This document shows, piece by piece, positions 45,499 through 50,554 of a stretch of 64,000 bases of DNA; position 1 is the first letter of the stretch, and every line of letters begins with the position of its first letter. This DNA is from Deltaproteobacteria bacterium HGW-Deltaproteobacteria-18. GTDB taxonomy: Bacteria; Desulfobacterota; Desulfovibrionia; Desulfovibrionales; Desulfomicrobiaceae. Under the pieces are notes generated by a model. The model worked only from the letters and a program-made list of their open reading frames with translations, was not told the origin of the DNA and did no database searches. The DNA lies in NCBI GenBank assembly GCA_002841885.1, contig PHBE01000010.1:1-64000 (forward strand). Direction: 5' to 3'. A program made the position numbers and the translations under genes.

Positions 45499-46812
45499 TC
45501 ACGAACGTTTCAGGGTTAACGTATCCAGCCTGGAAAAAACGGCCCGGCCGCCAAGAAAATGAGCCATGACCCGGCCGGGAATCTCCTTGTCCAGGCAGGG
45601 CGTGTTCTTGCCCTTGGACAGGAGGGCCCCGGCCGTGGCCACCCAGGCCAGGTCAGGGTCGAAAAGCACAAAGTCCGCAGGGTCGCCGGGTTGCATGCGG
45701 TTGGCGGGCAGGCCGAAAATGGAGGCCGTGTTCCAGCACCACAGACGGCTTATGTCGGCAAAATCAAGCTCCCCGCTGCGCACCAGTTCATAGGTCAGGG
45801 ACAGGGCCGTATCCAGGCCGGAAATGCCGCTGGGCGCATCGGCGAAAGTCACTTCCTTTTCGTGGGCCGCATGGGGTGCGTGGTCCGTGACCAGGATGTC
45901 GATGACTCCCGTACGCACGGCCTGGCGCAGGGCCAGCACATCGTCGCGGGTGCGCAGGGGCGGGTTGACACGCACGCTGGTGTCGTAGCCCTCGACCCTG
46001 GATTCGTCCCAGAGCAGGTAGTGCGGGCAGGTTTCCGCCGTGACCTTGACGCCGCGCTCCTTGGCCCCGGCGATGAGTTCCACCGACTGGCGGCAGCTGA
46101 TGTGGGCCAGATGGATGGGCAGGTCCAGGTAGGAGGCCAGCAGGATGTCGCGGGCGACCTGCATGGCTTCGGACACGGTCGGGATGCCCTTGAGGCCCAG
46201 ACGGCTCGAAACCTCGCCCTCGTTCATGACGCCGCCCGACCCCAGCCAGGGGTCCTCGCAGTGATCGATGACTTTCAGGCCGTAATCCGCCGCATATTCC
46301 ATGGCCCGCCGGAAAAGCTCCGTGTTCTCGACAGGCAGGCCGTCGTTGGACAACGCCACGCATCCGGCCCGGGCCAGCTCCCCGGCGGCGGCCAGCTCCT
46401 TGCCCTTGAGGCCCACGGTCAGCGCGCCGACAGGTCGGACCCAGGGGCCGTGCGCAAAGCTCTCGGCGGCTTTTTGCAGCATGAAGCGGGTCACTGAGGC
46501 ATTGTCGTTGACGGGACTGGTATTGGCCATGGCCATGACCTGCCCGAACCCGCCCCCAGCCGCAGCTGACAGGCCCGAGGCGATGTCCTCCTTGTATTCC
46601 TGGCCGGGTTCGCGCAGATGCACGTGGGCGTCGATGAGGCTCGGCAGGAGGCTCAGTCCGGCGGCATCGACGATCTGGGTCCCGGACATGCCTTCAGGAG
46701 CGGCGACGGTTCCGGCCTCGGCCAGTTCGAGCACACGGCCTTCGCCGATGAAGAGGTCGCAGCTGCGATCTTCCCAGAAAACATTGCGAATCAGACAATC
46801 TACATGTGCCAT
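45499..46812 (-). CDS. pyrC: dihydroorotase
   Basis: The 437-residue amidohydrolase cyclises carbamoyl aspartate in pyrimidine synthesis. The metal site includes DAHVHLREPG and VIDHCED, with TAETCPHYLLWDES and DHAPHAAHEKE later. The size and motifs are of the class I (long) type, as commonly found beside pyrB in deltaproteobacteria. It starts 22 bases after pyrB and is probably co-transcribed with it. Confidence 0.95.
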   Translation of the reverse strand: MAHVDCLIRNVFWEDRSCDLFIGEGRVLELAEAGTVAAPEGMSGTQIVDAAGLSLLPSLIDAHVHLREPGQEYKEDIASGLSAAAGGGFGQVMAMANTSPVNDNASVTRFMLQKAAESFAHGPWVRPVGALTVGLKGKELAAAGELARAGCVALSNDGLPVENTELFRRAMEYAADYGLKVIDHCEDPWLGSGGVMNEGEVSSRLGLKGIPTVSEAMQVARDILLASYLDLPIHLAHISCRQSVELIAGAKERGVKVTAETCPHYLLWDESRVEGYDTSVRVNPPLRTRDDVLALRQAVRTGVIDILVTDHAPHAAHEKEVTFADAPSGISGLDTALSLTYELVRSGELDFADISRLWCWNTASIFGLPANRMQPGDPADFVLFDPDLAWVATAGALLSKGKNTPCLDKEIPGRVMAHFLGGRAVFSRLDTLTLKRS

Positions 46813-46834: not shown

Positions 46835-47767
46835 TCATGCCGAGATCCGGGTTCTGGTCAAATACAGGTGCAGAAGGGTCATGCGCACGGCCACGCCCGA
46901 GGCGACCTGATCCAGGATGAGGCTCGCCCCGCAGTCGGCCAGCTCGGAAGAAATCTCAAGGCCCCGGTTCATGGGGCCGGGGTGCATGATCTTCACATCC
47001 GCGTTGGCCTTTTCCAGATGCCTTGCGCTGAGCCCGTAGGTGCAGGCGTACTCGCGCAGATCCGGCAACAGCCCCGCCTGCTGGCGCTCCAGTTGCAGGC
47101 GCAGGCAGATGACCGCGTCCACTCCTTCGCAGGCCCTGGCCACGTCGGAAAAAACATCCACCGGCCAGGTCCGGACCATGGCCGGCAGCAGCGTGCGCGG
47201 AGCGCAGATGCGGACCCGGGCCCCGAGCATGGTCAGAAGTTCCACATCCGAGCGGGCCACCCGGCTGTGGGCGATGTCGCCGAGGATACACACGGTCTTG
47301 CCCGCAAAGGAACCCCAGACCTGATGCAGGGTGAATCCGTCGAGGAGGGCCTGCGTCGGGTGGGCATGCCAGCCGTCCCCGGCGTTGATGACGGAGCAGG
47401 ACAGCCGTTCGGCCAGAAACCTGGCCGCCCCGCTGTCCCAGTGCCGGATGACGATGGCGTCGGGATTCATGGCCTGCAGGGTCAGGGCCGTGTCTTTGAG
47501 GCTCTCCCCTTTCTGCAGGGAGCTGCCCGACTTGGTCAGGCTGAATGTGTCGGCGGACAGGCGCTTGCCGGCCATGTCGAAGGAAGTCTTGGTGCGCGTG
47601 GAGGCCTCGGCAAAAAACAGGACCACGCTCTTGCCCTTCAGGATGGGCACCTTCTTGATGGGCCGCTGGTTCACTTCCGCGAACCGGGCCGCCGTCTCGA
47701 AAACATGGGCGATCTCATCGGGATCGAGCTGGGAAATCTCCAAAAGGTCCTTATGCCGCCAATTCAT
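46835..47767 (-). CDS. pyrB: aspartate carbamoyltransferase catalytic chain
   Basis: The 310-residue enzyme joins carbamoyl phosphate and aspartate. The carbamoyl-phosphate motif is [17 protein letters not shown], followed by [11 protein letters not shown] and the aspartate loop [12 protein letters not shown]. No regulatory chain PyrI is present. The start MNWRHKD was selected over longer frames because GGCGGAG lies just before it. Its start overlaps a leader reading frame and is preceded by an attenuator, so expression is probably tuned by transcription termination. Confidence 0.95.
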
Positions 47768-47885
47768 AGCTCCGCCTTGCCGCCCCTGCGGGGGTTGTGA
47801 TTGCATCGTGACCAAAAAAAAGGGACCCGGCTTTTCGCCCGTCCCTGTTGCTTGCGTCACGCACGGTCTTTCGTACACGTTTCAT
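47751..47885 (-). CDS. candidate leader peptide overlapping the pyrB start
   Basis: A 44-codon frame ([18 protein letters not shown] at its N-terminus) begins with AAGG at about nine bases, reads through the strong terminator at 47813-47846 including its T run (decoded as SLFFGHD), and stops 16 bases inside pyrB. Escherichia coli pyrB also has a 44-residue leader read through its attenuator. Five arginines fall in the first 17 residues. Only translation evidence can prove it; the frame could be accidental. Confidence 0.45.
47813..47846 (-). terminator. transcription attenuator in pyrB leader
   Basis: On the minus strand AGGGACGGGC, a GAAAA loop and GCCGGGTCCCT form a stem with a bulge, followed by eight Ts, 46 bases before the pyrB ATG. 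A copy of the 3' arm (AGCCGGGTC, plus-strand 47903-47911) lies upstream in the leader and could compete for pairing. The position and the leader frame suggest an attenuator that stops transcription unless conditions favour readthrough. Confidence 0.75.
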
Positions 47886-47951
47886 GCCATGAGCCCTTAC
47901 ACGACCCGGCTCTTGACGTCCAGTGCAACGGCAAGCATGGACGGGGCGCTC

Positions 47952-47983
47952 AAAAAAAGGCGCGCCCCCAAAGGAGCGCGCCC
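47952..47983 (-). terminator. terminator after gyrA
   Basis: On the minus strand GGCGCGC pairs with GCGCGCC across about ten bases and is followed by seven Ts, 25 bases after the gyrA stop. It separates the gyrase gene from the pyrB leader. Confidence 0.85.
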
Positions 47984-48007
47984 GAATCGGCATTCAAGAG
48001 CCAGGAC

Positions 48008-50554
48008 TTATTCCTGACCGTCCTCGGGTTCATCCGAGACTTCGTCGTCATCCAGCAGATCCGCATCGTCCAGGACCTCGGAATCTTCCGCAGCCGCGAT
48101 TGCAGCCGGCACCGGGGTGCGCGGAACACCGCTCACTTCCGGAGCATCGGTCGGCACATGATCGAAGCAGACCACGGTCTGTTCATCTTCAAGGCGAACC
48201 AGGCGCACGCCCTGGGTGGCCCGGCCGACAAGGCTGATGTCGGAGATGCCGATGCGGATGATCTTGCTGCCCGAAGTCAGGAGTATGAGTTCGTCCGTGG
48301 GATAGACCATCATGGCCCCGACGACCTTGCCGGTCTTGGGGGTGATGCGCATGTTGATGATGCCCTTGCCGCCGCGCGACTGGGCCCGGAAGTGCTCGAC
48401 CTGCGTGCGCTTACCGTAGCCGTTCTCGGCGATGGTCAAGAGTTCCTGCTGGGTGTCCTTGTTGACCACCACGCCGGCCACGACCTGATCGCCCTTGCGC
48501 AGGGCCAGGCCCTTCACGCCCGTGGCGGTGCGGCCCATGGCGCGCACATCGGAGCAGGCGAAGCGGATGGAGTAGCCGTCCACCGTGACCAGCACCATCT
48601 CGTCATCGGCCTCCACTTCACGCACGCCGATGAGCTCGTCGTCGTCCCGCATGCCAAGGGCGATGAGGCCCACCGCGCGGATGTTGCGGTAGAGGTGGAC
48701 CGAGCTGCGTTTGACCACGCCGAGCTTGGTGTAGAAGAAGTAGAATTTCTCCTGGTCCAGATCGCGGCAGGTCATGGCTGCGGCGATGTATTCATTGCTG
48801 TCCAGCGGGAGCAGGTTGGCCACATGCTTGCCCCGGGCCGTGCGGCCGCCCTCGGGAATCTGGTGCACCTTGACCTGGTACATCTTGCCCTTGTTGCTGA
48901 ACAGATTCATGTACTGATGGTTTGAAGTGGTCAGGATGAAGGTGATGAAATCCTCCTCCGCGACCTGCACCCCGGTGATGCCCGTTCCGCCCCGGCGCTG
49001 CTGGCGATAGTTGTCCAGGCTGGTGCGCTTCAGGTAGCCGTTGCGGGACAGGGTGATGACCACCGGCTCGTCGGGGATGATGTCCTCGATGTCGATGGAG
49101 TCGGGATCATGGGCCAAAAGCTCGGACTTGCGGGGCGTGGCAAAGTTGTCTCGCAGATCCTGGAGCTCCTGACGGATGACGGACTTCAGGACTTCGGGGT
49201 TTTCGATGACGCTGGTCAGATACTCGATCTGTTTCAGGAGTTCGGCATATTCCTCCAGGAGCTTTTCGCGCTCGAGGTTGGTCAGCCGCTGCAGGCGCAT
49301 GTCGAGGATGGCCTGAGCCTGGATCTCGGACAGGCCGAAACGCTCGCGCAGGCGTTCCTTGGCCTCCTGCGGAGTCTTGGAGGCGCGAATGAGCGCGACC
49401 ACCTCGTCGATGAAATCAAGGGCTATGCGCAGCCCCTCAAGGATGTGCGCCCGATGCTGGGCCTTTTTGAGGTCGAAGCGCGAGCGGCGGATGACCACTT
49501 CACGGCGATAGTCGAGAAAATACTCGAGCACCTGCTTCAGATTCAGCAGCTGGGGCCGGTTGTTGACCACGGCCATCATGTTGATGCCGAAGCTGGTCTC
49601 AAGCGACGTGAACTTGAAGAGCTGGTTGACGATGACATCGGAGAAGACGCCCTTCTTGAGGTCCATCACGATGCGGATGCCCTTCATGTCAGATTCGTCG
49701 CGCAGGTCCGAGATGCCCTCGATCTTGCGCTCGTTGACCAGCATGGCGATCTTTTCCACCAGGGTGGACTTGTTCAGGGCGTAGGGGATCTCTTTTACGA
49801 CAATGGATTCGAGGTCCCCTTTGCGTTTTTCGATCTCGATGCGAGAGCGGATGCGCACCGAGCCCCGACCCGTGCGGTAGGCCTCGCGGATGCCGGCCTT
49901 GCCGTAGATGAGCGCGCCCGTGGGAAAATCCGGGGCCTTGATGTACTGCATCAGATCGTCGATGGACATCTGGGGCTCGTCGAGCAGCCGCAGCGTCCCG
50001 TCGACCACCTCGCCAAGGTTGTGGGGCGGAATGTTGGTGGCCATGCCCACGGCGATGCCCGAGGAGCCGTTGACCAGCAGGTTCGGTACCTTGGTCGGCA
50101 GCACCGAAGGCTCCTGCAGGGAGTTGTCGTAGTTGGGGCGAAACTCCACCGTGTCTTTTTCGATGTCGGCCAGAAAGGAGCTGGCCAGGCGGGACATGCG
50201 CACCTCGGTGTAACGCATGGCTGCCGCGGAGTCGCCGTCGATGGAACCGAAGTTGCCCTGGCCGTCGACCAGGGGATCGCGCATGTTGAATTCCTGGGCC
50301 ATACGCACCAGGGCGTCGTACACGGCCGAGTCGCCATGGGGATGAAACTTGCCGATGACGTCACCGACCACGCGGGCGGACTTCTTGTAGGCCCGGTTGT
50401 ACGTGTTGCCGAGCTCGTGCATGGCGAAAAGGATACGCCGGTGAACGGGCTTAAGGCCATCGCGCACGTCCGGGATGGCCCGGCCGATGATGACGCTCAG
50501 CGAATATTCCAGATATGATTTCTGAAGTTCTTTTTCGATACTGATGTTGGACAC
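48008..50554 (-). CDS. gyrA: DNA gyrase subunit A
   Basis: The 848-residue subunit breaks and rejoins DNA during supercoiling. It has the winged-helix/tower with [17 protein letters not shown], the catalytic Tyr in [12 protein letters not shown], a coiled coil, and the beta-pinwheel C-terminal domain with the gyrase box QRRGGTG. The C-terminal tail is strongly acidic ([11 protein letters not shown]). The start is a GTG: either 50554 (VSNISIEKE, with GAGG five bases upstream, chosen) or 50560. Downstream gyrB and dnaN form the same leftward cluster. Confidence 0.96.

Follow-up and report, generated by a model that had tools for sequence, protein, structure and literature searches.

A conserved attenuator-like leader with a predicted leaderless reading frame upstream of pyrB in Desulfomicrobium

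The DNA preceding pyrB in the window (the whole stretch analysed, 64,000 nucleotides) raises the question of what decides whether transcription reaches this gene. Attenuation by transcription-translation coupling, in which nucleotide supply is sensed, is textbook knowledge for the pyrBI operon of Escherichia coli, and the preliminary description had pointed out the likeness of this locus to it, namely a terminator that resembles an attenuator and is crossed by a leader frame. That likeness holds. On the minus strand the gene order, starting from the dnaN side, is gyrB, gyrA, pyrB and pyrC, with gyrA ending at 48008 and 240 nt separating it from pyrB. Close named relatives, with 94 and 91% identity of pyrB, are Desulfomicrobium. 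The features used below, all on the minus strand, are these:

47958..47983, minus: terminator of gyrA itself, 5' of the pyrB promoter (terminator scan)
47917..47922, minus: putative -35, TGGACG, identical in 14 of 14 leaders of the genus and always 17 nt before the TA
47903..47911, minus: AGCCGGGTC copy, read here as promoter spacer and outside the RNA; exact in one of 14 genomes of the genus
47894..47899, minus: putative -10, TAAGGG, a weak match to TATAAT; TA kept in 14 of 14
47751..47885, minus: leader frame of 44 codons plus stop, its AUG following the putative -10 by 8 nt and predicted to lie at or near +1; ATGAA unchanged across all 14 leaders of the genus
47822..47845, minus: terminator hairpin GGGACGGGCGAAAAGCCGGGTCCC, -15.0 kcal/mol with a flanking pair; the consensus structure of 14 leaders
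47814..47821, minus: T tract of the terminator; eight Ts in 14 of 14 leaders of the genus
46835..47767, minus: pyrB, aspartate carbamoyltransferase catalytic subunit (NF002032, 375.7 bits, cut-off 263), ATG at 47767
45499..46812, minus: pyrC, dihydroorotase, directly 3' of pyrB (TIGR00857, 357.3 bits, cut-off 279)

The terminator with eight Ts reported 46 nt before pyrB is indeed present. Its stem folds as six pairs plus three, separated by an internal loop, which is probably why a simple terminator scan of the window did not return it. Folding of the short leader was not outstanding against shuffled sequences (z -1.61, 12 of 200 shuffles folding as well), and we judge the hairpin to be above chance because it is conserved in the genus. 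pyrB was present in all 16 Desulfomicrobium genomes searched, and in 14 of them the stem and T8 are kept 48-55 nt before the gene, so that an intrinsic terminator sits between the putative promoter and pyrB; the same 14 of 16 keep the order promoter-like element, ATGAA, a hairpin beginning GGGA and T8. Our stem finder overlooked 12 of these 14 hairpins on account of the internal loop, and these were located by sequence anchors instead. Covariation gives little support beyond invariance, with a two-sided change in one of nine pairs among the 14 leaders. In the two remaining genomes (G005 and G014, loci L094 and L096) the whole leader is lost or replaced, and gyrA is not found 5' of pyrB within the stretch examined. 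In the genus gyrA lies 5' of pyrB at 13 of 16 loci. One of the 14 hairpin-bearing loci, L095, has no gyrA upstream and keeps the hairpin, and two Desulfovibrio loci (L042 and L044) carry it with no gyrA within about 3 kb of upstream DNA; the hairpin thus tracks pyrB and not gyrA. Rfam, run on the whole window at gathering scores, returned no family; when 47700-48010 was searched at E up to 5, the matches were weak ones to sRNAs, all falling on the gyrA terminator.

We extended the comparison to 100 regions from the order, 12 of them Desulfovibrio, together with 60 further Desulfovibrio regions and six of the same family. The 72 Desulfovibrio regions come from the 75 genomes with a pyrB match (G117, G205 and G212 were left out), and a comparable terminator was found in 63 of them. 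For leader analysis 53 were used, nine lacking the hairpin by our criterion, seven a promoter match and three an ATG; in two of the nine, L237 and L249, a hairpin can be recognised by eye, its T tract being weaker (TTCTTTTT). The Desulfovibrio alignment gave a poor consensus of three pairs, because the loops do not align.

The position of the leader AUG relative to the putative promoter sets these leaders apart from pyrBI. All 14 leaders of the genus contain TGGACG-N17-TA followed 7-8 nt on by ATGAA. TGGACG, the putative -35, agrees with TTGACA at four of six positions; a consensus promoter scan found no match at this site. An alternative -10, TGTAAG with a spacer of 15 nt, was dropped for TAAGGG with 17 nt because the same spacing fits three leaders of a related genus and those of Desulfovibrio. 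We also considered CTGGACG...TGTA as a regulon element and rejected it, since it had six matches in the window's genome, whereas the same pattern reversed, used as a control, had 26. For Desulfovibrio the promoter pattern was picked without regard to ATG. It matched in 56 of the 63 hairpin-bearing regions, with TTTACA in 53 of these and a spacer of 17 nt in 51 and 18 nt in five. When the 3-14 nt after the -10 were searched, 53 of the 56 leaders had an ATG, and every one of these ATGs lay 6, 7 or 8 nt downstream (25, 16 and 12 leaders). This is where +1 would be expected, and the leader frame is therefore predicted to be leaderless or nearly so, its AUG standing at or near the 5' end of the RNA. 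From the ATG to the stem the distance in the genus is 35-44 nt, and 40 or 41 nt in 12 of 14 leaders.

The second copy of the 3' arm, AGCCGGGTC, had been proposed as an antiterminator. The copy falls within the putative promoter spacer, between the conserved TGGACG and TA, and is exact in one of 14 genomes of the genus, and so is probably untranscribed. The consensus fold of the 14 leaders contains the terminator only, with no competing structure, and on these grounds we rejected the proposal.

As described earlier, the 44-codon frame (47885-47751) crosses the stem and the T tract and reaches into pyrB; the overlap is 17 nt. In the genus frame 0 is open from the ATG into the stem in 13 of 14 leaders, compared with 0 and 8 for the other two frames, and to the end of the 3' arm in 12 of 14, the window included. 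In the alignment ATGAA and T8 are invariant and codons 3-13 vary. A length change of one base shifts the frame relative to the stem in L084, L085 and L087; it is still open there, and ends on an ATGA shared with the pyrB start. The leader stop is the TGA of such an ATGA in 10 of 14 leaders of the genus and 15 of 53 in Desulfovibrio, while the frames of the window and of L086 end 14 nt inside pyrB. There are also frames that end early: that of L091 ends in the loop, that of L093 stops eight codons in, 10 nt short of the stem, and in Desulfovibrio leader L265 encodes MNKTS only.

The Desulfovibrio leaders show the same openness. From ATG to 5' arm, frame 0 is open in 52 of 53, against 12 and 23 for the +1 and +2 frames. 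Restricted to 32 less related leaders, the counts are 31 against 8 and 16; shuffling of the leader bodies in this set gave an expectation of 16.6 open frames, and 31 was reached in none of 20,000 simulations. To the end of the 3' arm 34 of 53 are open (25 of 32 in the less related set, against 8 and 16). The stops of the 53 frames lie past the hairpin in 32 cases, inside it in 18, before it in one and beyond the stretch in two. A codon-position test for coding gave no signal, with 42, 39 and 40 substitutions at positions 1, 2 and 3 in eight independent Desulfovibrio pairs. Equal substitution would by itself be expected of an untranslated stretch as well; what speaks against such a stretch is the openness of the frame. 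Openness without a conserved peptide fits a ribosome that, as in pyrBI, has only to pass; it does not fit a codon-specific sensor, and selection on the openness of the frame, and not on the peptide, is the best explanation we have. The preliminary description had held that a hairpin conserved without its frame would tell against it; this did not occur, the frame staying open, although the peptide itself is not kept. Some codons of the window's leader are rare in seven neighbouring genes (among Arg codons, CGA at 2% and AGG at 4%; among Val codons, GTA at 3%), which could mean either slow decoding or simply the absence of codon selection.

The base composition before the stem differs between the two genera. 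As noted earlier, no U-rich pause tract is evident: in Desulfomicrobium the mean U content of the 40 nt before the stem is 0.15, with a maximum of 2-4 U per 12 nt (mean 3.1) and a pyrimidine content of 0.35. In Desulfovibrio the corresponding mean is 0.32, with a mean maximum of 6.8 of 12 and values up to 10, compared with 22% U in the earlier leader and 19% in the first 40 nt of pyrB. U is higher before the stem than in the earlier leader in 29 of 43 Desulfovibrio leaders, and at least 7 U per 12 nt occur in 29 of 53. E. coli pyrL gives 0.35 and a maximum of 7 of 12 by the same measure, and there, according to a passage of PMC10135430, polymerase pauses on the U-rich template at low UTP so that the ribosome blocks the terminator. 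For many Desulfovibrio leaders a reading in terms of UTP is thus well founded; for Desulfomicrobium and the window, pyrimidine sensing would follow by kinship with them.

Taken together, the leader seems to be a conserved pyrB attenuator of pyrBI logic whose leader frame is predicted to be leaderless and which, in this genus, has no U-rich pause. We consider it rather probable that it acts as a pyrBI-type attenuator through coupling of transcription and translation, the leader frame starting at the 5' end of the RNA or no more than a few bases from it. By default, polymerase leaving the promoter would make the hairpin and T8 and stop before pyrB. If polymerase were slowed, most likely by scarce UTP or CTP, a ribosome loaded on the 5'-terminal AUG could cover the roughly 40 nt up to the stem in time to prevent the hairpin from forming, so that transcription would continue into pyrBC; the ribosome would finish at, or just inside, the pyrB start. 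The promoter-like element, the AUG position, the open frame and the terminator, with no competing structure, are what comparison of the sequences provides; the start site, leaderless translation, premature termination, the ribosome as antiterminator and the pyrimidine-nucleotide signal are what we infer. Several findings count against this explanation: the U-poor leaders of the genus, as the U-rich tract is the UTP-sensing part of pyrBI, the poor -10, the frames that end early, the regions without the arrangement (L094, L096, nine of 72 in Desulfovibrio and 84 of 88 in other genera) and the existence of a PyrR homologue.

Set beside E. coli pyrBI, the locus shares a leader frame of 44 codons and an eight-T intrinsic terminator just 5' of pyrB with the frame running through the hairpin, no antiterminator having been found here; the Desulfovibrio relatives share the U-rich stretch before the stem as well (0.32 against 0.35 in 40 nt). 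E. coli pyrL differs in having a ribosome site, GGGAGG, and in its spacing, with 25 nt from the -10 to the ATG and 88 nt from the ATG to the stem; here the AUG follows the putative -10 by 7-8 nt and precedes the stem by 35-44 nt. Unlike pyrBI, the Desulfomicrobium leaders have no U-rich tract, and pyrB is followed by pyrC and not by pyrI. Leaderless leader frames, predicted here, are known elsewhere: in Sinorhizobium meliloti the trpL transcript (rnTrpL) begins with the leader-frame ATG, as a passage of PMC7298713 states, and mycobacterial leaderless small ORFs overlap the start of the next gene by an RTGA tetramer, as described in a part of PMC4633059. Those frames sense amino acids (Trp, Cys) or have been proposed to do so, whereas the leaders described here conserve no codon and precede a pyrimidine gene as their target. 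Among open-licence PMC papers we found no report on pyrB attenuation in Desulfovibrio or Desulfomicrobium. If the explanation is true, coupling-based nucleotide-sensing attenuation would exist also in sulfate-reducing Desulfobacterota, without a ribosome-binding site. The leader would then offer a simple natural assay for the speed of ribosome loading on leaderless RNA, and its U-rich and U-poor versions in two genera a ready comparison of what polymerase pausing contributes.

More tentatively, these leaders could represent a Desulfovibrionales class of attenuators whose peptide senses nothing, an idea that we regard as possible and somewhat short of an even chance. The leaderless AUG at +1 would itself provide the coupling, in a race to the terminator between RNA polymerase and the loading of a ribosome at the 5' tip. 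With pyrB read-through as the readout, the U-rich version of Desulfovibrio would report nucleotide supply and the short U-poor version of Desulfomicrobium another quantity, for example the capacity for leaderless initiation or the rate of elongation, and only the openness of the frame and the AUG position would be under selection.

Among the alternatives, control by PyrR is unlikely and survives best. A PyrR homologue bound to UMP or UTP would grip the leader RNA and favour the terminator, with no part for a leader peptide. The pathway is that of PyrR-dependent attenuation (RF00515), and the genome to which the window belongs has a PyrR-family gene (G000:C7:86869-87393, locus L287; 227.4 bits, cut-off 138), whose product is a PyrR/uracil phosphoribosyltransferase homologue. 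PyrR is found above the family cut-off in 14 of 16 genomes of the genus and 69 of 79 Desulfovibrio genomes, and G014 lacks both the hairpin and a PyrR above cut-off. The correspondence breaks down in G005, where PyrR is present and the hairpin absent, and in Desulfovibrio G219 (L262) and G157 (L278), where there is a hairpin and no PyrR match. The leader has a reading frame in place of a PyrR site: over 47700-48010 Rfam gave no match to RF00515 at E values up to 5, although a diverged site could escape Rfam. Only about 40 nt separate the predicted start from the stem, a second hairpin is absent from the consensus fold, and the leader frame would be left unexplained.

That the hairpin is a constitutive partial terminator, setting the basal level of pyrB with no sensor while the open frame just passes ribosomes, we consider quite unlikely. 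Desulfomicrobium is without the U-rich tract, and 40 nt would give a ribosome little time to catch up, both as expected of such down-tuning. A sensorless terminator, however, needs neither an open frame nor a fixed AUG position, and these are held over two families, against the +1 and +2 frames.

Arginine sensing, which the preliminary description had favoured, is very unlikely, and we dropped it as the leading reading since Arg is not conserved and substitutions fall equally on the three codon positions. A ribosome stalled on Arg codons would decide the fate of the terminator; in this geometry a ribosome stalled at codon 3 or 5 would be 34 or 28 nt away from the stem and would leave the hairpin free, turning pyrB off when arginine is scarce. 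Five of the first 17 residues are Arg, as had been counted (positions 3, 5, 9, 14 and 17). Those at 14 and 17 arise because the stem itself reads CAGGGACGGGCGA, and at least five Arg in codons 2-17 are reached by 9.8% of base shuffles, so that the enrichment is weak. The leader uses CGT, CGA and AGG for Arg, the latter two at the low frequencies given above. Conservation of the Arg codons, proposed as a check, bore out in part: R3 and R5 occur together in 10 of 14 leaders of the genus, the exceptions at these two positions being L090 (R/P), a P5 variant, and the diverged L092 (S/R), L093 (R/W) and L095 (H/Y). In Desulfovibrio Arg is generally not kept, the 53 leaders having 0-4 Arg in the first 17 residues (mean 1.75, none in eight). 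No conserved run of regulatory codons of the trp or his type was found in the leaders, Arg codons not being kept; nor is there an alternative structure, or an excess of third-position substitutions in Desulfovibrio. Sparing of carbamoyl phosphate would need the same sign, pyrB off at low arginine, which makes a weak arginine brake conceivable, and one may act in close Desulfomicrobium.

The idea that the hairpin terminates transcription from upstream, of gyrA or a small RNA, with the pyrB promoter further downstream, draws on gyrA lying 5' at most loci of the genus and is highly improbable, as gyrA already has its terminator (47983-47958), the promoter scan found no promoter-like site between hairpin and pyrB, and L095, L042 and L044 keep the hairpin without gyrA upstream.

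Beyond these two genera the arrangement is rare. In 30 other genera of the order a terminator-like hairpin was found at most 135 nt from pyrB in four of 88 regions; by the criteria used, the attenuator was not met in the other 84. In the related genus g4 all three leaders (L120, L121 and L122) contain TGGACG-N17-TA and, at 31-32 nt from pyrB, a hairpin with T8-T9; the nearest leader ATG lies tens of bases after the -10, so that by the ATG-position test these leaders would not be leaderless. They have RKS at residues 4-6 in common, by eye. In the window's own genome no attenuator was evident by eye in the DNA upstream of carA and pyrE. The Desulfovibrio leader L238 (G233) carries a tandem duplication of the pyrB hairpin, and its leader frame is open across both copies. 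Finally, at ten loci of Desulfovibrionales without the attenuator (L011-L013, L015, L016, L018, L020, L021, L024 and L026) we observed by eye a CCCGCC... element directly 5' of pyrB and a GCCCGGC...GCCGGG stem adjoining GGAGGAAGGA before the gene, elements that perhaps serve translational control.
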